A DNA stretch of 34,998 bases from a virus. Positions 10 through 34,998 of this stretch are shown here, piece after piece. The notes beneath the pieces were generated by a model. It was not told where the DNA came from and searched no databases. It saw only the letters and a program-made list of their open reading frames with translations. Position 1 is the first letter of the stretch. Every line of letters begins with the position of its first letter. Made by a program: the position numbers and the translations under genes. The stretch lies in IMG/VR virus record IMGVR_UViG_3300042988_000821, positions 1 to 34,998 of that record, one strand, 5' to 3'.

Positions 10-29
10 CAAAACTATTTCTAGTTTTG
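10..29. repeat. 8-bp inverted repeat over the HNH stop codon
   Basis: CAAAACTA (10-17) and TAGTTTTG (22-29) form a perfect 8-bp hairpin with a 4-nt loop. It overlaps the stop codon of the HNH gene. On the minus strand the loop is GAAA. No U-tract follows, so it is not a standard intrinsic terminator. It may stabilise the mRNA end or be part of the packaging region next to the genome end. Confidence 0.5.
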
Positions 30-374
30 CACCCCCCTCCCTCTTGTTCCGTCTCGATAACCCTTTATCTGATGGCACTTGTAGCATAACGATTGCAGGT
101 TGCTCGGATCATCCGTGCCGGCAGGCTTGGGGAGGATATGATCCACCATCTGGGCTGGTACTAAAACTCCCTGGTGCACCGAGTATGGATCAGCACACCA
201 GGGATGGTTGGTGATGTAAGGGTTGCGCACATTGACCATCCAATCCCGCCCATATCCCCGGGCCGCTGCGGACTTGCGTTTGTCTGGCCGTTTGCGCGGG
301 TGCGCGGGACAGTCTCCACTGTTGATCAGCAGTCTGCCGCACTGGGGACACGGGACGGGAGGACGGTTCGGCAT
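21..374 (-). CDS. HNH endonuclease, packaging-associated
   Basis: A 117-aa protein with an N-terminal zinc knuckle (CPQC at residues 9-12) and a C-terminal HNH core: VDHILPK, then an asparagine in SNLQSLC, then CYKCHQ. HNH proteins of this size next to terminase genes in cos-type tailed phages assist the terminase in cutting at cos; this is family knowledge. Its ATG overlaps the stop of the upstream membrane-protein gene (TAATG). It is the last gene of the leftward transcripts, and if the ends join, the next gene is the small terminase. That arrangement supports a packaging role over a homing role. Homing or free-standing HNH activity cannot be excluded. Confidence 0.88.
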   Translation of the reverse strand: MPNRPPVPCPQCGRLLINSGDCPAHPRKRPDKRKSAAARGYGRDWMVNVRNPYITNHPWCADPYSVHQGVLVPAQMVDHILPKPAGTDDPSNLQSLCYKCHQIKGYRDGTRGRGVQN

Positions 375-835
375 TAGAAATAAGCCGGGGCTTTCCTGTT
401 TGCACCATTCAGTTGATGCGAGAACGCCTTGATGTTCAGGCCGTACGCCATTGCGCGGTGTGCGGACTTGGTGCCGACGATCTGTAATATATAGGCAAAG
501 ACAATGCCAGCCACGCGGGCAAACTCGGCGGCGTGCGCGTCGAATGCGGCAAAGTCAAACTGCGGATAGAGCTTGAACACCACACTGACAATGACGAGCA
601 TGATCAGGTTGGCAACCGCGGACCATTTGCCGGCATTGCCATCTGTCACCACGCCCGCCCATTTCAGGATGTTGATCAGCAGGGCAATCAGGGCGAATGT
701 CCCGATCAGTCCCTGGACAACCAACAACACGGCATCCAGCGAAACACCGGTCAGTCCAAGCACGGCAGCGAACAGGGCCACCAACCCAAGCGGCAGACCC
801 AATTCTTTGAAAACACTTGCAAGATCGATCTTCAT
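374..835 (-). CDS. small multi-pass membrane protein, possible holin
   Basis: A 153-aa protein. The start at 835 is chosen because AAAGGAG lies 8 nt upstream; the longer reading frame would run through a terminator hairpin. It has about three hydrophobic segments, near residues 12-30, 36-58 and 72-92, then a more polar tail containing AHRAMAYGLN. Size and topology would fit a holin, but the lysozyme lies 15 kb away, so this is only inference. It is translationally coupled to the HNH gene. A duplicated leader with an intrinsic terminator (851-935) lies directly upstream, so expression is probably gated by read-through. Confidence 0.75.
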   Translation of the reverse strand: MKIDLASVFKELGLPLGLVALFAAVLGLTGVSLDAVLLVVQGLIGTFALIALLINILKWAGVVTDGNAGKWSAVANLIMLVIVSVVFKLYPQFDFAAFDAHAAEFARVAGIVFAYILQIVGTKSAHRAMAYGLNIKAFSHQLNGANRKAPAYF

Positions 836-850
836 TTTCTTTTCTCCTTT

Positions 851-935
851 GGTAAATAAAAAAGCCCGACGACTCTCCGCGAGAGTCGCCGGGCGCATCA
901 CATCCGACAGGCGTCCCAGATTACACCAGGACTGC
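851..935 (-). repeat. leader element copy A (duplicated at 32486-32571)
   Basis: An 85-bp segment nearly identical to 32486-32571 in the same orientation. The stem bases of the terminator are the same in both copies, while the 5-nt loop differs completely (ccgcg versus gcaat). Only a T/C, a G/T and a 1-nt indel differ elsewhere. In minus-strand RNA about 40 nt of conserved sequence precede the hairpin. GTCG in that segment can pair with CGAC of the terminator stem, which would be mutually exclusive with termination. The layout (conserved segment, terminator, ribosome binding site, small membrane gene) resembles a regulated leader. The ligand or factor, if any, is unknown. Confidence 0.7.
858..894 (-). 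terminator. intrinsic terminator, copy A
   Basis: In minus-strand RNA a 13-bp stem (864-876 with 882-894, one U-G pair) is followed by six U (858-863). The U-G pair at 869/889 would be A-C on the plus strand, which fixes the orientation. It lies 23 nt before the start of the membrane-protein gene, so some read-through is required. Confidence 0.85.
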
Positions 936-970
936 AAAGTTGTTATAGTTTTGTTATGAAGTGTTTACAA

Positions 971-1261
971 CTATTCTTCTTGATTATATCTTGAGAAGAG
1001 CCGCTCATAAGAAACAGAAGGAGGTTCTATCCAATCCAACGATTCTCCGCAAATTGTACAAACTATTCCGTTACACGCTCCAACAATGGCGCTAATTCTA
1101 GGCTTAGGCAGCTCTGCCGGCTCGTTCCCGCGCTCTACAGATTGTTCGTACAAATAAAGGCACGTTATTTTTTGATCACCACGCGAAACCTTGCGGATCT
1201 CTCCCAGCACATGCTCGTGCTTCTTGTTCTTCGGCCAGAATTTGCGTTCAGTTGCTGGCAT
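971..1261 (-). CDS. hypothetical protein with cysteine pair
   Basis: A 96-aa protein of unknown function. The start at 1261 is chosen because the upstream gene ends in TAATG, which overlaps this ATG, and a GGAAGG site lies upstream. The C-terminal half has a cysteine cluster (GACNGIVCTICG) that may bind zinc. The N-terminus is basic. It is the last gene of a run of small AT-richer genes before the leader element at 851-935. I recognise no family. Confidence 0.7.
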   Translation of the reverse strand: MPATERKFWPKNKKHEHVLGEIRKVSRGDQKITCLYLYEQSVERGNEPAELPKPRISAIVGACNGIVCTICGESLDWIEPPSVSYERLFSRYNQEE

Positions 1262-11747: not shown

Positions 11748-13190
11748 ATGGTACGATTTGCGGTCATTGCGGGAGTCTCCACCGACGCACAAGCGCGGGA
11801 GGAAAAGCAATCCATCCCCGATCAGGTCGAGAACTGCCGCCGCTACATCGCCGCCAATGGGGGAGTGGAGTCTGTCCCGCCCTACATCATGGACGGCTAT
11901 TCCCGCACCGGTTACGACTCTCTTGAGCTGGCCATGCAGGCCATCCCGCCCCTGGCACAAGCTATCCGTGACGCGCAGGCCGATCGTTATGACGTTTTGA
12001 TCATGGATCACTTTGACCGTCTGGGGGATCTTGGCCTGCTGGCCCTTGTGCGCTTCAAACGCATCCGCAAACAACTGTTCAGCGTCCGCCAGTCCGGCAA
12101 ACTCTACAACCCCGAAACCTACAACCCCTACGATGACGAGTCCGCCGACATGCAGATGCGCATGCACGGCATCATCCAGTCCTACCGCATCAACAAGATC
12201 CGCCGCGCCTGGGAAACCGGCGTCCCGGACCGTGCCTCCGCTGGTCTGCATCCGCTCACCATCCCCTATGGATATAAACTCGGCCCGCGCTCAGCCCCCG
12301 CAGAGATCATCCCCGATCAGGCCCGGCTCCTGCGTGAGATGAAGGATATGTACCTGTCAGGAAAGACTCTGCAGGCCATCGTCGATCACGCCAACGCATC
12401 CGGCGTCCCGCCCCGCAGATCGCGTACATGGCAGATCGCAGTCGTGCGGCGCATCATCCACAACCCGTACTACGCGGGCTTCACCGTCTTTGGAAAGTTT
12501 CGTAAACTGGACGGGCAGCGCATCGCTCAACCCCCGTCCAAATGGATCCGTGGCAATGGGCAGCATACCCCGCTCTGGGATGAGCAGACCCACTACGCTA
12601 TTCTGGCAGAGTCCGCCCGCCGGGAGGGTCTCCGCAGCCGGTCAAAAACCCACGCCCTCACTGGCCTGTGCGAATGCGCCAAATGCGGTCAGCGCCTGCA
12701 CCATCACGGCACGCCGCCCTACACATACCTATCCTGTCATGACAAACCCGCGCATATTAAACTGCGCTACGATCACGCCTGCGAAATAATCTTTGCAGAG
12801 ATCGTCACCCAGATCCAATCCGGTGCTCTCGACGCACCAGGCAAAGACTCTGCCGGCTCTGCGCAAAGTGAGATCAACAAACAACACGCCCTCCGCAAAA
12901 AAGTACAGGAGGGTTATGAGCTGGACTTATACACCGCGCAGGAAGCGCAGAAAAAGATCGCCGCCATAGAACTCCGCATCGAACAGCTGCAGCGCAAACA
13001 AGCAGATGCTGCGCGCCTGGTTGCCCACAAAACAGCCGCCGCCCAATTCGCGTCCCTGCCTCCAGACCGCATGTTATACTGGCTGACACACGACGACCCC
13101 AGCGCCGTCAACCACATCCTGACCACCCTATGCCAAAAGATAATCGTCACCCCCAAGACCCACAAAATACACATCATCTGGCGCGATTGA
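11748..13190 (+). CDS. int: large serine recombinase (integrase)
   Basis: A 480-aa site-specific recombinase. The N-terminal catalytic domain (1-150) carries the nucleophile in GVSTDAQ (Ser11). The recombinase domain follows (about 165-290; PYGYKLG, RRIIHNPYYAG), then a zinc ribbon (C308, C310, C313, then C330, C345) and a coiled-coil insertion (about 376-416). Length and order fit phage integrases of this class, which recombine attP with attB without host IHF. Oddities: the arginine usually two residues before the serine is Gly9, the LDRLSR-type motif reads FDRLGD (Asp94 for Arg), and the RP motif is absent. It may be a divergent clade or catalytically altered. There is no clear ribosome binding site. 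Confidence 0.93.
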   Translation: MVRFAVIAGVSTDAQAREEKQSIPDQVENCRRYIAANGGVESVPPYIMDGYSRTGYDSLELAMQAIPPLAQAIRDAQADRYDVLIMDHFDRLGDLGLLALVRFKRIRKQLFSVRQSGKLYNPETYNPYDDESADMQMRMHGIIQSYRINKIRRAWETGVPDRASAGLHPLTIPYGYKLGPRSAPAEIIPDQARLLREMKDMYLSGKTLQAIVDHANASGVPPRRSRTWQIAVVRRIIHNPYYAGFTVFGKFRKLDGQRIAQPPSKWIRGNGQHTPLWDEQTHYAILAESARREGLRSRSKTHALTGLCECAKCGQRLHHHGTPPYTYLSCHDKPAHIKLRYDHACEIIFAEIVTQIQSGALDAPGKDSAGSAQSEINKQHALRKKVQEGYELDLYTAQEAQKKIAAIELRIEQLQRKQADAARLVAHKTAAAQFASLPPDRMLYWLTHDDPSAVNHILTTLCQKIIVTPKTHKIHIIWRD

Positions 13191-13277: not shown

Positions 13278-13303
13278 AAAACACCCCATCTGGGGTGTTT
13301 TAC
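13278..13303 (+). terminator. intrinsic terminator of the lysogeny operon (bidirectional)
   Basis: ACACCCCA (13281-13288) and TGGGGTGT (13291-13298) form an 8-bp stem with a 2-nt loop, extended by A-U pairs, with A-tract before and T-tract after. It ends the repressor-integrase operon and could also work leftward. Confidence 0.85.
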
Positions 13304-13463: not shown

Positions 13464-13515
13464 AAAAAACCCGCCACATTTGAGCGTGTCCCAAAGGGGC
13501 AGAGGCTTGGCGGGT
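13464..13515 (-). terminator. terminator of the late operon with long internal structure
   Basis: In minus-strand RNA, ACCCGCCA (from 13515-13508) and UGGCGGGU (13476-13469) pair and are followed by a U-tract (13469-13464) and then AUUU. The 31-nt internal segment can form a CCC/GGG hairpin. The U-tract context (UUUUUUAUUU) is the same as in the twin leader terminators. Confidence 0.75.
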
Positions 13516-29569: not shown

Positions 29570-30703
29570 CTAATCCTCGATCGTCTTGCCAGCCTTGATC
29601 CAGGCGGCCTTTTCCAGTGCACCCAGCGCGTCAAATTCAGCGCGTTTCATGCTGTTCTTTTCAGCAGGGGCGGGGGTGGCAGGCTTCTCAGCCGCGCTCC
29701 CCAGGGTGAACTTCTGAGCCTGCGCTTCGCTCAAGCGTGCGCGCTCATCCTGAATGACCTTGATCTTTGCATCGATCTGGGTCAATTCGCCTTCCGCTCC
29801 GAGGATCGCATTGAAGCGCGCGCGTTCCTCTTCGCTCAGGTCGCGGTTTTCAGTATCCGCAAGTTCAGCAAGCCCTTCGGCTTCGGCCAGCAGCTTGGCG
29901 CGCTGGTCCAACATTTCCCGTACGTTCATGGCATTTCCTCCAAAATCAAAATGATTGGCTTTTGCAACGGCGCTCCATCGTTCGCGGGATGCCCGTTCGC
30001 GCTCCAGCGCGGGGCCTTCCTGCGCAACAACAGGCTCCTGCCCGTCATTGTTTTTTGGATCACCTTGCGACAACTCGCCTTTGGTTTCATTGGCGAGATA
30101 TTCACGTTTCAGTTCGCTCAACTGAGCGATCACTCCGGTTCCTTCCACGGCGGGCGCATTCACCGCAGAGACTTCCTTGCCCTTCGGGTTGACAAAGATC
30201 AACTCGCATGTCTGTTCTCCACTCAAGGTCTGATATTTCGCGCCAACCCAGTGCTGGCAGTCTTTCGAATACCAGCTTGTATTGCAGATCGAACACAGAC
30301 AATCGTCGTAGAACCAGCCGATCGAAAAGCGGTCGATCCGCCCCTCAACAAAATCCATCATCCCGCGCCGGGTCGTCAGGCGGATGTCTTGCTGCATGGC
30401 CGATCCATCCCAGAACGAGGACAGGATCATCCCGTCGCGCGACTCGATCTCCGCCGTGTCGTGGTCCCGCAGGAACGGCTGTCCCTCGAACGAAGCGGAA
30501 AAGTCTGTCATGTCCGCATCCATAAAGCGGTACGGGTTGCGGTTCAGGCCGTTGGTGAATACCTTTGCGCGAAAATCAATGTGCTCAATTTCGCCGCTCT
30601 CGATCTTCGGCAGCACCTCGGCCCGCGCAGGCAGGGCCAGTCGTTCCACGATCGGCACCGAATACAGCACAGGGTAAAGGTTGGTTGGTTTTTTATCGTT
30701 CAT
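29570..30703 (-). CDS. prohead protease fused to delta-domain-like scaffold
   Basis: A 377-aa protein. Start ATG 30703 has GGAG 5 nt upstream. The N-terminal protease domain (about 20-190) has FLRDHD with His81 and DRFSIGW with Ser127, matching the catalytic residues of prohead proteases; a zinc knuckle CLCSIC..C.H (135-151) is inserted. From about 255 the sequence MLDQRAKLLAEAEGLAE, then DLSEEERARFNAIL and ELTQIDAKIKVI is very like the delta domain of HK97-type coat proteins. So scaffold and protease are one protein. An internal start for a separate scaffold is possible. Confidence 0.85.
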   Translation of the reverse strand: MNDKKPTNLYPVLYSVPIVERLALPARAEVLPKIESGEIEHIDFRAKVFTNGLNRNPYRFMDADMTDFSASFEGQPFLRDHDTAEIESRDGMILSSFWDGSAMQQDIRLTTRRGMMDFVEGRIDRFSIGWFYDDCLCSICNTSWYSKDCQHWVGAKYQTLSGEQTCELIFVNPKGKEVSAVNAPAVEGTGVIAQLSELKREYLANETKGELSQGDPKNNDGQEPVVAQEGPALERERASRERWSAVAKANHFDFGGNAMNVREMLDQRAKLLAEAEGLAELADTENRDLSEEERARFNAILGAEGELTQIDAKIKVIQDERARLSEAQAQKFTLGSAAEKPATPAPAEKNSMKRAEFDALGALEKAAWIKAGKTIED

Positions 30704-32300
30704 GGCTCGCTCCATTCAATATCCGGCTGATGCCCTCGGTCAATTCATCGGGCATTTTTTCCAGCAGCGCGTCACATTGCAATTCAACAAAACCCGCATC
30801 CAGCAGGCCGAACTGTCCAGCCTGTTTGATTGCGTAATTTTCAAAATACTCTCCAAACTCATCACTCAGGTCGCCCGCGCCGAACAACGTGCAAAACGCC
30901 TCGATCACCGGGGCAAACTGCTTGCGGATGAACTGCGAGTGATCATTTGCGTAAAAATCGCTGACCCACGCCGTGAACTCCGCATCCTGCCCTTTGGAGA
31001 GATGCCGTCTGGCTGCCCCGCGTACATCGTTCGCCTCGCGCCGTGCGACTCTCAACGCCGCATCGTGGATCAACGGCCTGAGTGAGTTTTGCGGCTGCTG
31101 GGTCGTGCCCACCGTCACCATGTTCAACGGCATCAGCATGTCATCCAGTCCGTTGCGCGGGTTCAGGTTTTCGCGTTCGCGCACTTCATTGCGGCTCATC
31201 ACGCCGTTATTGATGGCTTTGACATACGCCTCATATCGCGTGGCAATATCACCGCGCAATAAGCCGTCAAACAGGTGTTCGTAAAAATATCCCTGCTCGC
31301 GGTCGCTCTTCAAAAGCAGCTGCGAGTTCAAAGCCTGTTCGATCCGCACTGCCAGCGGGCGCAGCGTGTGATTTACGTACCCTTGTTCCTGGCTGTCGAT
31401 GCCCGTTCCCCAGCTCGTACTCTTCTGCACGTCGCCGATCATGTGCGGCGGAACAGGTCCCAAAATGCGGTTGATTTCTGATAGTTGGAATTGTCTTGTC
31501 TGCAGGAATTGCGCGTCCTCTGGCGGAATGCCGATCTCTTTGATCGTCATGCCCTCTTCGAGGATCTTCGGCTTCCAGGCATTGGCTGCGCCCTTGTTTT
31601 CTAATAACGACTCTTGCAGGTGCTTGAATGCGGTATCAGATAACTGCGACGGGTGCTGGTACACAACTCCGGGCCGCGCATCATTTGCAAAAAGTTTGGA
31701 TCCAAATTTCTCGGCGCTGATCGCCAGGCCAATGGCATTGCGCGCCATTGCGATCCGGCTCTGTCCCACCATGCCGTCAAAGCCCCAGCCGGGCACATGC
31801 AGGATTTCATCCGCGGTGAAAACTCTCGGCTTCCCGTCCGCGCTGCGGTAGGTGTAAACTTTCATTCCCTCGATCCGCTCAACCAGCATGCGGTCCGGGC
31901 GCAGCGGCCAGATCTCGCGCACGATCCCCGCCTCATCCCAGATCAACTGCCCGTAAAAATTTCCCCAGGCCAGTAAATGGCTTACGATCAATTCCCGGAA
32001 GATCATCGAGGACATTTCCGGGTTCGGCTGGTCGTGCATCAGTTCGTAATACGGGTTGTCCGTTGCGCGGAACTTGTTGCGTCCCCGTCGCGCGTACAAC
32101 AACAGCGGCAGCGACGCCGTATCCTGTGAAAGCAGCGTCATGATCGCGATCACCGCAGAGGTGGTCACCGCCGACTCCGGCGTGATAACCTCATCCGAAT
32201 AACTCACATGCCGCATCTCGCGCGGTCCCCGCGCATTGCGGTCCGCACGTTCGCGCGCGGTTTCCTGTAAGGCGAATACGTTTGACGGTTTAAGCAGCAT
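30693..32300 (-). CDS. portal protein, HK97 family
   Basis: A 535-aa protein that forms the dodecameric channel at the head vertex. Typical segments: AVTTSAVIAIMTLLSQDTASLPLLLY (about 43-68), NPEMSSMIFRELIVSHLLAWGNFY, EILHVPGWGFDGMVGQSRI, VPPHMIGDV and RNEVRERENL with a C-terminal helical extension. TTGAG is a weak site before ATG 32300. It overlaps the upstream small gene by 11 nt. It follows terminase as usual. Confidence 0.93.
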   Translation of the reverse strand: MLLKPSNVFALQETARERADRNARGPREMRHVSYSDEVITPESAVTTSAVIAIMTLLSQDTASLPLLLYARRGRNKFRATDNPYYELMHDQPNPEMSSMIFRELIVSHLLAWGNFYGQLIWDEAGIVREIWPLRPDRMLVERIEGMKVYTYRSADGKPRVFTADEILHVPGWGFDGMVGQSRIAMARNAIGLAISAEKFGSKLFANDARPGVVYQHPSQLSDTAFKHLQESLLENKGAANAWKPKILEEGMTIKEIGIPPEDAQFLQTRQFQLSEINRILGPVPPHMIGDVQKSTSWGTGIDSQEQGYVNHTLRPLAVRIEQALNSQLLLKSDREQGYFYEHLFDGLLRGDIATRYEAYVKAINNGVMSRNEVRERENLNPRNGLDDMLMPLNMVTVGTTQQPQNSLRPLIHDAALRVARREANDVRGAARRHLSKGQDAEFTAWVSDFYANDHSQFIRKQFAPVIEAFCTLFGAGDLSDEFGEYFENYAIKQAGQFGLLDAGFVELQCDALLEKMPDELTEGISRILNGASHER

Positions 32301-32472
32301 GGCGACTCAACCAAACCAAAATAAAGGAATTGACCAATCCGGTTCCGCACAGGATCGCGCCGCATACCGCCAGCGCCATTCCCAGCCCGTACATGATCCA
32401 CAGCCCGACGAACAGGGCGATCAGGCCAGCGTAAAAAAGGATGTCGTTTTGATCCAGTGCTAATTTCTTCAA
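32290..32472 (-). CDS. tiny membrane protein between terminase and portal
   Basis: A 60-aa protein. Start TTG 32472 is chosen because AAAAGGA lies 6 nt before it; a TTG at 32490 would fall inside the terminator. Two transmembrane segments (ILFYAGLIALFVGLWIMYGL and AVCGAILCGTGLVNSFILVWL). The duplicated leader element copy B is directly upstream. Both leader copies precede small membrane proteins, which suggests shared control. Function unknown; holin-like size. Confidence 0.7.
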   Translation of the reverse strand: MKKLALDQNDILFYAGLIALFVGLWIMYGLGMALAVCGAILCGTGLVNSFILVWLSRHAA

Positions 32473-32485
32473 AGCCGTTCCTTTT

Positions 32486-32571
32486 GGCAAATAAAAAACG
32501 CCCGACGACTCTGCAATAGAGTCGCCGGGCGCATCACATCCGACAGTCGTCCCAGATTACACCAGGACTGC
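32486..32571 (-). repeat. leader element copy B (duplicate of 851-935)
   Basis: An 86-bp near-identical copy of 851-935. In this copy the terminator stem is one base pair longer (CG added) and the loop is gcaat instead of ccgcg. With copy A it brackets the small/large terminase and HNH genes once the ends are joined (about 3.3 kb), which could allow exchange of the packaging module by homologous recombination. Confidence 0.7.
32493..32531 (-). terminator. intrinsic terminator, copy B
   Basis: A 14-bp stem in minus-strand RNA (32499-32512 with 32518-32531, one U-G pair) is followed by six U (32498-32493). It lies about 130 nt after the large-terminase stop. Downstream genes need read-through or their own start. 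Confidence 0.85.
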
Positions 32572-32662
32572 TGAATTATTCAATTGGGCGGATGCTGGGT
32601 GAGGGAGGGCACCCTTCAACCGCCAAAGAGAGGATAGCACAAAGTAATAAAAATTACAACTG

Positions 32663-34357
32663 TCAAGACTCAATTGGCGGATTGTTATCCAGCGTCCGCA
32701 CGCCGCGCCGCTCGTACACGCTGCGCCGCGACTTGTAATGCTTGGCCCGCGCCATTGCGCACACCCACGCCGTGGTCAAGTCAATGCGCTTGGTTCGGTC
32801 CAGATGTTTACCGCGCCGTTCCTTCACGTATTTGATCTGCGCATTGCCGTTCTTCGCAATGGACGTATTACCAAAACACCAGCGCGCCACCGGGTGCGGC
32901 TCATGGGTCAGCTTGTACACGGTCGGGTCTTTTGCAAGAATGGACTCCCGCGGCGGTTCGGCCAATGCCTCTTCGATCGTCTCAGGCTCTGTGTTTGTTC
33001 CGCCCCGCAAAAGGATCTCGATCATGTTCATGGGGTCGGTCAGAGTCGCATACGTCTGCGGAATATCCACGCACGTCACGCCCTCGTCCTGCAATTCCTG
33101 AACCAGCATCGATGCAAAAGACATATCCAGCGCCAGCTCCTGCACTTTATACAGGCTCGCGCATTCCAATATCCGCTCTTTGATCTTGGTGTAGTCCACC
33201 ATATTGCCTTCGGTCGGATAGATCCACCCCTCGCCAGCCCATTTGTCATAAGGCACATGATCCAGTCGGATCCGTTCCTGCATGTTCACTTCCGGGATCC
33301 AGCAATCCCAGATCACCCGCCACTCTGGCACTCCCTCCTGCGGCGGGAACACAAGGCAGATCGCGCTCAGGTCGGTCGTGGTGGAACAGTCCAGCCCCAT
33401 GAAGCACTCTTTCCCGATCAGATCCGCGCGCGTCCAATCTCCAACCGACTGATCCCACAGGTCCAGCGGGAGCCAGCCTGCCAGTTTGGTTGTCACCCAC
33501 TGGTTGAGCCGCAGCCATCGGAACAGGCGTTCATCGGCCTTGCTCAATTTCGCCTCTGCCGCCGCCTCGCGCATTTTCTCCACGGTGAAAGTGAACCCCA
33601 TCGACGGGTTTGCCTTCGCCCAATTGGACTCGTTGTAAATATCCTCTCCCTGGTATCCATAGATCACCGGGTACCAGGTCGGAATATCATTGGCCGCATC
33701 CCCCGACTCCCGCGCCTTGATGATGGACTCCGCCTTTTCATGCACTTCCCAGCCGATCGAAACGCGGTCCGGATCAGACCCCGCCGTGGTAATGACCCAC
33801 CACAACGGCTGTAAGCGCGCATCGCCCGCGCCTTTGGTCATCACGTCCCACAGGTCGCGGGTGGGCAGGGAGTGCAATTCGTCAAAGATACACGCGCTCA
33901 GGTTGATACCGTGTTTGGTATATGCTTCTGAAGACATCACCTTGTAAGTCGTGCCGGTGACTTTATCCGAGATCATCTTGGTGGATACGTTCAGCTTCGT
34001 GCGTTTCTTCAACGCGGGGATCTGGTCGATCATATCCACGGCCACGTTGAACACCAGGCTTGCCTGTTCGCGGTCCGAGGCGCATCCGTACACTTCGCCG
34101 TTTCGTTCCCCGTCGTGGTACAGGTGATATAACGCCAGCGCAGCGCACAGTTCGGATTTTCCCTGCTTCTTGGGCAGCTCCAGGTATGAGTACCGATAGA
34201 CTCTCATGCCTGTCCCGTTTACCGTCCCGTACACGTCATTCAAGATCGAACGCTGCCACGGGAGCAGCGTAAAAGGTGCCCCATAGAACGGGCTTTTTGT
34301 GTGCTTCAACAGCTCCACAAACTTTATAACTCGATCCGCCTTCTCTTGCGAATACAT
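32663..34357 (-). CDS. terL: large terminase subunit (TerL)
   Basis: A 564-aa packaging motor. ATPase: adenine-binding LLPWQRSILNDVYG (31-44), Walker A LPKKQGKSE (61-69), Walker B CIFDE (156-160), coupling motif ITTAGS (189-194). Nuclease: GLDCSTTTDL (321-330), LALDMSF, and DLTTAW near the end. It belongs to the HK97/lambda-like TerL group. The gene starts 1 bp after the small-terminase stop. With an adjacent HNH it points to cos-type packaging. Confidence 0.96.
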   Translation of the reverse strand: MYSQEKADRVIKFVELLKHTKSPFYGAPFTLLPWQRSILNDVYGTVNGTGMRVYRYSYLELPKKQGKSELCAALALYHLYHDGERNGEVYGCASDREQASLVFNVAVDMIDQIPALKKRTKLNVSTKMISDKVTGTTYKVMSSEAYTKHGINLSACIFDELHSLPTRDLWDVMTKGAGDARLQPLWWVITTAGSDPDRVSIGWEVHEKAESIIKARESGDAANDIPTWYPVIYGYQGEDIYNESNWAKANPSMGFTFTVEKMREAAAEAKLSKADERLFRWLRLNQWVTTKLAGWLPLDLWDQSVGDWTRADLIGKECFMGLDCSTTTDLSAICLVFPPQEGVPEWRVIWDCWIPEVNMQERIRLDHVPYDKWAGEGWIYPTEGNMVDYTKIKERILECASLYKVQELALDMSFASMLVQELQDEGVTCVDIPQTYATLTDPMNMIEILLRGGTNTEPETIEEALAEPPRESILAKDPTVYKLTHEPHPVARWCFGNTSIAKNGNAQIKYVKERRGKHLDRTKRIDLTTAWVCAMARAKHYKSRRSVYERRGVRTLDNNPPIES

Positions 34358-34358
34358 A

Positions 34359-34922
34359 CTATCCTTCCAACAATCGCGCCATCTCGTCGTCTGGCTCTGC
34401 GTCTTCGCGTTCCTGCGGCGCTACGCCCGCGCGCGATCTCGGCGTCAGGTAAAGACTCTGCGAGAGGGTATGCAGCAGCTTCCGTTTCGCATCCAGCCGC
34501 GCATCCATTTCCTTGAACCGCCCGAACAGGGCATTCACAATGCCCCACATCGCCACCCATTCTTTCAGGTCTTCGGTCGTTGGTTTGATTTTCTTTGCGA
34601 AGGTGGTGTTGCTCTCCCAGTCTTTCTTGATGGCCCTGCGCATGGACTCAAGTTCGTAACATTCCTCTTCAAGTAGGCAGTATTTGATCAACAGGTCATA
34701 GTCAAACGCCGTGACGATCTGACCCTCGATCTCCGCGTACAGGTTGAGCGTCCTCTTCCAGGTTGCCGCGGCGCGCGCGTGCTCCTTCCCCCGTAACCGG
34801 ACCGGTATTGCGGCGCTCAGCACCGTCTTCGGTGTCATCGCCGACTCTCCCGCCTCTCGCTCCTGGCGGATTTCTTTGCTCGTGTTTCGCGAGTTCAAAC
34901 TTGCGGGTTTTCTTGCTGGCAT
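34359..34922 (-). CDS. terS: small terminase subunit (TerS), P27-like
   Basis: A 187-aa protein. Start ATG 34922 is preferred; an in-frame ATG at 34982 near the window end would add 20 basic residues. The helical core (AEIEGQIVTAFDYDLLIKYCLLEEECYELESM) and C-terminal RKLLHTLSQSLYLTPRSR match P27-type small terminases, whose C-terminus contains SxxxxLxLTPxSR. It binds the packaging site and hands DNA to TerL. The N-terminus is basic, suited to DNA contact. Confidence 0.88.
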   Translation of the reverse strand: MPARKPASLNSRNTSKEIRQEREAGESAMTPKTVLSAAIPVRLRGKEHARAAATWKRTLNLYAEIEGQIVTAFDYDLLIKYCLLEEECYELESMRRAIKKDWESNTTFAKKIKPTTEDLKEWVAMWGIVNALFGRFKEMDARLDAKRKLLHTLSQSLYLTPRSRAGVAPQEREDAEPDDEMARLLEG

Positions 34923-34998
34923 GGTTTTCTCACTCTGAATCAGGCTCAATCTCCAGCGTCGCGAATTTCTCACATTGTGCATTTTTTTCGCGTGAGCA

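Follow-up and report, generated by a model that had tools for sequence, protein, structure and literature searches.

A previously undescribed RNA element, probably an on-switch for virus late genes, in two copies per phage

Two copies of a leader and terminator in one virus record

The DNA analysed here, called the window throughout, is an IMG/VR virus record of 34998 bases. Comparison of the window with itself by BLAST found a sole repeat of its kind, in which positions 848-935 match positions 32483-32571 with 92.1% identity over 89 nt (E 1.75e-29). Both copies, designated E1 and E2, are minus-strand RNA. A first-pass annotation had described 851-935 and 32486-32571 as nearly identical with terminator loops that differ, and on both counts it was correct. 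The features of the two loci are as follows.

854-935, minus strand: E1, comprising leader, terminator and U tract, upstream of the late genes c8-HNH-(TerS-TerL); covariance model R1, 79 bits, and alignments A2/A4
913-932, minus strand: E1 hairpin P1 (GUCCUGGU..UCUGGGAC); double changes in 7 of 8 P1 pairs across relatives
933-936, minus strand: 5' strand UGCA of E1 stem S1, partner UGCG at 897-894; covariation
894-897, minus strand: 3' strand UGCG of E1 stem S1; covariation
904-908, minus strand: candidate antiterminator strand GUCGG of E1 (stem S2), partner CCGGC at 892-888 within the terminator 5' arm; covariation
888-892, minus strand: 3' strand CCGGC of E1 S2, common to the terminator 5' arm; covariation
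864-894, minus strand: E1 intrinsic terminator hairpin, then TTTTTTATTT (863-854)
983-988, minus strand: candidate -10 box TATAAT of E1; direct sequence reading
970-965 and 947-942, minus strand: second candidate promoter of E1, TTGTAA, 17 nt, TATAAC; direct sequence reading
971-1261, minus strand: c10, gene of a small Cys/His protein, immediately 5' of E1; candidate regulator
374-835, minus strand: c8, multi-pass membrane protein, next gene after E1; orthologues after E1 in most relatives
21-374, minus strand: HNH endonuclease gene, second gene after E1; phrog_144, E 1e-22
34359-34982, minus strand: TerS, terminase small subunit; phrog_83
32663-34357, minus strand: TerL, terminase large subunit, ending just upstream of E2; phrog_9, E 1e-135
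32631-32659, minus strand: candidate promoter of E2, TTGTAA (32659-32654), 17 nt, TATCCT (32636-32631); direct sequence reading
32489-32571, minus strand: E2, comprising leader, terminator and U tract, between TerL and portal; covariance model R1, 81.8 bits
32549-32568, minus strand: E2 hairpin P1; covariation
32569-32571, minus strand: 5' strand GCA of E2 stem S1, partner UGC at 32533-32531; the fourth pair is A.G here
32540-32544, minus strand: candidate antiterminator strand GUCGG of E2 (stem S2), partner CCGGC at 32528-32524
32498-32532, minus strand: E2 intrinsic terminator hairpin, then TTTTTATTT
32290-32472, minus strand: c9, membrane protein of 60 aa, next gene after E2 in the window phage
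30693-32300, minus strand: portal protein gene, always downstream of E2; phrog_12, E 1.9e-111

The identity of E1 and E2 runs from the GCA just 5' of P1, across the terminator, as far as the Shine-Dalgarno region. In the window the leaders share 98% identity, whereas for the 60 nt upstream of them the figure is 40%, compared with 42% in shuffled sequence. The terminators have 14 bp and a loop of 3 in E1 (894-864) and 15 bp and a loop of 5 in E2 (32532-32498), with different loop sequences, and both are followed by a tail of the TTTTTTATTT type. They are strong intrinsic terminators, the top two on the minus strand of the window, and the RNA folds of E1 and E2 lie 4-6 sd below dinucleotide shuffles. 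An alternative pairing, GTCG with CGAC, is present in the window and reaches 5 bp (GUCGG with CCGGC).

The third-best minus-strand terminator of the window, at 13278-13301, comes directly behind the integrase gene; it is almost a perfect palindrome (AAAACACCCC..GGGGTGTTTT) and may serve both strands. A match to the abiF RNA was found on the minus strand at 13469-13514 (37.3 bits against the Rfam cutoff of 37), beside the serine integrase gene (11748-13190, plus strand).

Two fixed places in phages of likely Anaerolineae-type hosts

With TerL as the query, 53 viral loci were retrieved, and its use as a profile gave more viral and genome contigs. The element itself was found by iterated profile searches seeded with the two window copies, and the resulting covariance model R1 recovered copies of the main class (class I) at 60-94 bits. 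A total of 46 class I copies from about 32 records were aligned. Longer records in which the whole region is present have two copies each and lack a third, and the places are fixed: E1 upstream of HNH-TerS-TerL and E2 between TerL and portal. Scans with DNA patterns, which are blind to protein content, gave additional phages that carry E1 or E2 at the same places, with a TerL mostly just 26-36% similar to the query set. The terminases have evidently been exchanged while the element and its position persisted.

Among 396 genomes of the class Anaerolineae, a clear copy (59.9 bits) was found in one, G019, where it lies on a prophage contig (L153) of a Villigracilaceae (Anaerolineales) assembly; the weaker matches in these genomes (36 bits or less, alignments listed) lack the leader signature. 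We therefore rejected the idea that the phages borrowed an attenuator from their host. TerL relatives also occur in two more Chloroflexota assemblies (L106 and L134), and together with the G019 prophage they make it likely that the hosts of these viruses are Anaerolineae-type (Chloroflexota) bacteria. At E1 and E2 no Rfam 15 family matched at the gathering score, and the best match at a relaxed threshold reached 19.6 bits against a cutoff of 49.9. Searching the known phages of INPHARED gave one chance match and no relative of the element. In the literature we found neither a description of the element nor anything on late-gene timing in Chloroflexota phages.

In the window E1 precedes the membrane-protein ORF at 374-835 and E2 that at 32290-32472, as the first-pass annotation had noticed, and E1 usually precedes a c8 orthologue in relatives. 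The link is not general, since the gene that follows E2 changes among relatives and can encode an HD-domain-like protein, c24, c15 or others. A signal dedicated to membrane-protein genes was accordingly rejected. The HD-domain-like gene, of HD-GYP type judging from its HD and HH motifs, is unusual in a late region; it stands directly after E2 at the following positions.

L011:13243, L013:2645, L027:10413, L028:2241, L033:3730 and L038:8996: HD-domain-like gene after E2

A further hairpin, P0, is present in one copy per phage between TerL and portal, either in the E2 leader or 90-500 nt upstream (window 32584-32627, minus strand). Its C-rich loop, TG(Y)CCCCCTCA, is nearly invariant, and its stem changes yet stays complementary. 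P0 is also present in L010, L013, L018, L025, L030, L036, L037, L040 and L045, and lies farther upstream of E2 in L006, L011, L014, L019, L027, L033 and L038. Since it is well upstream of the promoter of E2 in several phages, it was set aside as a part of the E2 element; a packaging site and an RNA signal are candidate roles. Many contigs, including L003, L018, L025, L028, L030, L031 and L040, start just upstream of TerS, and the ends of the window (1/34998) fall at a break between HNH and TerS. This suggests cohesive genome ends (cos) between HNH and TerS, in which case transcription from E1 could extend into TerS only once the genome had circularised.

In nine phages (the window, L006, L014, L019, L027, L210, L218, L220 and L221) c10 is the gene immediately before E1; in five (L011, L025, L038, L045 and L153) it lies farther upstream, and it was not found in the incomplete records L010, L036 and L012. 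Its co-occurrence with E1 is partly simple adjacency. The conserved residues of c10 are, in order, Cys, His, Cys and Cys, and this zinc-type pattern suggests metal binding, although the initial Cys of the four is missing from the window protein. No match to c10 was found in Pfam or PHROG, no relative in the 50,697 annotated phage records of INPHARED, and no convincing match among PDB folds or viral models, the best viral one being A0A1P8DJL1 (E 0.011). The confident model of L220 c10 (pLDDT 88.3) likewise had no clear match to solved folds. Short Cys-rich proteins occupy the place of c10 in L226/L227, which carry the divergent class II element described below, and in L005, which carries a minimal form. 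Their profile similarity to c10 is weak (hhalign probabilities of 46 and 49%), so that a kinship can only be called suggestive.

A terminator and a pseudoknot that exclude each other

Covariation was analysed in two alignments, A2 with 29 copies and A4 with 46 copies (44 distinct), the latter fitted to P1 and the terminator and not to S1 or S2. Both alignments support four helices: P1, the terminator, S1 and S2. In A4, double changes occur in 7 of the 8 pairs of P1 and in 19 of the 23 pairs of terminator plus P1. S2, in which GUCGG of the leader pairs with CCGAC of the terminator arm, is paired in 99.5% of cells, with double changes in four of five pairs and types that include GUUGG/CCAAC, AUCGG/CCGAU, GUCAG/CUGAC and GACGG/CCGUC. 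S1 joins (N)GCA to UGC(N) just upstream of the terminator 5' arm; it is paired in 94.3% of cells, with double changes in two of four pairs, as in GCG/CGC of L011 and GCU/AGC of L008. Six copies are exceptions to S1 with A.G as their outer pair, and in both L006 copies an A-U is broken. For the pseudoknot as a whole, 13 of 17 pairs show double changes, compared with 4.8 in shuffles, and none of 500 shuffles reached the total. The A2 alignment and a permutation on hand-segmented copies gave the same outcome. A pairing of GCA with UGU after P1 was considered as S1 and dropped, being less consistent by eye.

The crossing of S1 and S2 makes the alternative fold an H-type pseudoknot, whose first loop contains P1. 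It uses the 5' arm of the terminator, so that the pseudoknot and the terminator are mutually exclusive. The competing stems are short, S2 having just 5 bp and S1 3-4 bp. Paralogous copies in the same genome (L014, L045, L218 and L221) have different pentamers, each fitting its own arm, which speaks against the conservation being due to a shared protein-binding word. Few unpaired positions are conserved, and the P1 loop is variable. A leader peptide was also considered and rejected, the AUG of GAUGCGCCC being lost in several copies (L006, L008 and L027).

The same pairing logic is kept in two variants that have no normal class I element: L040 (GGCA/UGCC and UCAGA/UCUGA) and L005, which is without P1 (GCA/UGC and GCUGG/CCAGC). 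In class II leaders (L004, L012, L013, L030, L041/L224, L223 and L226/L227) P1 is of another sequence (GACCGC..GCGGUC), and GUCG(G) is still complementary to the terminator arm. Their S2 varies by G-C/G-U changes alone, and S1 was not identified in the class II leaders examined. In L004, L012, L013 and L030 a covarying tetraloop hairpin (e.g. GAUCGAAAGAU, AGCCGUUUGGCU) lies between the GUCG strand and the terminator.

Comparison of the relatives shows, then, an element at two fixed places whose two folds covary and exclude each other. The roughly 40 nt before the terminator do not vary freely in relatives with the terminator alone being kept; rather, the covariation and the identity of leader against flank support the view of the first-pass annotation that selection acts on structure and on this segment. 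Its GTCG/CGAC antiterminator pairing was well chosen, being conserved and covarying among relatives, though the second, pseudoknot-forming pairing and the candidate regulator gene had been missed.

Read-through into the late genes

At both E1 and E2 an intrinsic terminator is placed between a candidate promoter and the first gene, with a Shine-Dalgarno sequence directly after it. A TATAAT-like box lies 16-25 nt upstream of GCA in many copies and about 45-70 nt before it in others, mostly E2, the window E1 being ambiguous. When E1 and E2 of the same genome were compared, the promoter regions had a mean identity of 52%, equal to the shuffled level, against 75% for the leaders. By this measure the shared signal is the transcribed leader, not the promoter. 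The likeness of E1 and E2 leaders is 0.749 within genomes and 0.680 between genomes, as would be expected from one genome-specific factor, from shared descent or from gene conversion.

When transcripts were cut off past the 5' arm of the terminator, the minimum-energy fold contained S2 in 24 of 28 copies, and in the full-length RNA the probability of S2 is 0 in all copies by a calculation that omits pseudoknot energy. Since S2 is usually favoured in the truncated RNA and the terminator in the full-length RNA, termination is expected by default and the alternative must be stabilised. Furthermore, 21 of 28 copies have a Shine-Dalgarno sequence and start 11-39 nt past the U tract. There is little room for a promoter between U tract and start, so that downstream expression should need read-through.

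We propose that E1 and E2 are cis-acting attenuators relieved by a phage factor, most likely c10, and hold this model as a whole to be probable, with moderate confidence. E1 and E2 would head two late segments, one for packaging (HNH, TerS, TerL) and one for the capsid (portal onwards). In one state the leader would form the intrinsic terminator of 14-15 bp, and in the other the pseudoknot, made by the pairing of (N)GCA to UGC(N) on either side of P1 and of GUCGG to CCGAC of the terminator 5' arm. The pseudoknot may form first during transcription and yet be weaker than the terminator; unaided, it would therefore be displaced, and the late genes, along with read-through from early genes, would stay off. 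Ahead of late expression the phage would make a factor, most likely c10, that would bind P1 or the pseudoknot on the nascent transcript and either hold the pseudoknot or modify RNA polymerase, allowing read-through into the Shine-Dalgarno sequence after the U tract. The order of folding in vivo, termination by default, factor-dependent read-through and c10 as the factor are what we infer from the comparison. A wider proposal, to which we lean rather less, is that a c10-family protein recognises a nascent, arm-borrowing pseudoknot at two checkpoints and that divergent RNA classes go with divergent c10-like proteins, namely class II in L226/L227 and the minimal form in L005, each with the c10-like protein directly upstream.

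It is also conceivable, though unlikely, that the RNA itself antiterminates, with P1 or the pseudoknot contacting RNA polymerase as the put RNA of phage HK022 does in cis, no phage protein involved, and host factors or transcription speed setting the balance. The partner protein is a candidate only, and two structured copies of about 70-80 nt near promoters recall putL and putR (PMC9378689). In HK022, put consists of two stem-loops that bind the zinc-binding domain of the RNA polymerase beta' subunit; it belongs to early operons, and the terminators it acts on are distant (PMC9378689). It thus resembles E1 and E2 as a pair of structured leader RNAs per phage, antitermination being the role proposed here. 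Instead of the two adjacent stem-loops of the V-shaped put RNA, however, E1 and E2 have one hairpin and a terminator-exclusive pseudoknot that is fused to a single terminator, uses its arm and stands in late operons. Action like that of put would not need complementarity to the element's own terminator, with which the leader strand covaries here, and in the absence of a signal the switch would have no timing.

We think it quite improbable that E1 and E2 are free-standing genes of about 100 nt for trans-acting small RNAs, the terminator being simply their end. Promoter-like boxes close upstream, a strong terminator and a compact structure would suit such genes, but a free RNA needs no conserved strand against its own terminator, and with the Shine-Dalgarno sequence so soon after the U tract in most copies, the next gene needs read-through. 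A slightly poorer prospect still is that they are plain terminators or insulators against early or host transcription, with the late genes expressed from undetected promoters and the leader stabilising the small RNA or the terminator. The terminators are indeed the strongest on the strand and E1 is at the early/late boundary, but the covariation of S1 and S2 would be left unexplained, and the space for a promoter before the start codon is small. A small-molecule riboswitch, whose pseudoknot would bind a metabolite with a level that shifts during infection, is very improbable: many riboswitches do combine a small pseudoknot with a linked terminator, but no non-prophage copy was found in the 396 Anaerolineae-class genomes, few unpaired positions are conserved, the P1 loop is variable, and the element always stands before late phage genes. 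The near-identity of E1 and E2 in the window might suggest a functionless recent duplication, which can practically be dismissed, since many phages have diverged copies at these two places in which compensatory changes keep P1, S1 and S2.

The attenuator model also bears comparison with protein-dependent systems. The lambda late region has the order Q-pR'-tR'-lysis-cos-terminase. The order c10-E1-membrane protein-HNH-TerS-TerL resembles it, with c10 placed like Q. As in lambda and phage 21, a terminator follows just after a late promoter (a candidate here) at the early/late boundary, a small gene lies directly upstream, and the genes downstream are of membrane or lysis type, then packaging, then capsid genes. 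Unlike in those phages, a second copy, E2, is found between TerL and portal. Lambda Q loads via a DNA site, QBE, between -35 and -10, plus a -10-like pause (PMC6606751), whereas the promoter regions of E1 and E2 are no more alike than shuffled sequence and their common signal appears to be the RNA leader that pairs with the terminator. By mechanism alone, the model also resembles antitermination at RAT sites, where a weak RNA fold overlaps the terminator 5' arm and needs a bound protein to win. RAT, the target of the sugar-system regulators LicT, SacY and BglG, is a hairpin with a characteristic internal loop, whereas the fold of E1 and E2 is a pseudoknot and the candidate protein c10 is of an unrelated phage family. 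The conAn system of Gram-positive conjugative plasmids gives processive read-through of more than 20 terminators (PMC8955417); it likewise combines a small protein (a candidate here) with a cis RNA heading a long operon of a mobile element, whereas E1 and E2 each carry their own terminator.

Little seems to be known of late-gene timing in Chloroflexota phages, and the covariance model R1 provides a means to locate late operons in uncultured phages. E1 and E2, copies of a previously undescribed RNA element, probably serve as an on-switch for virus late genes. If the proposed mechanism is true, comparison alone would have revealed an RNA-based late-gene checkpoint, together with a candidate protein that can be named, c10, and with base pairs defined well enough for a direct mutational test, and a pseudoknotted, probably protein-assisted antiterminator would join the few known phage strategies (N, Q and put).
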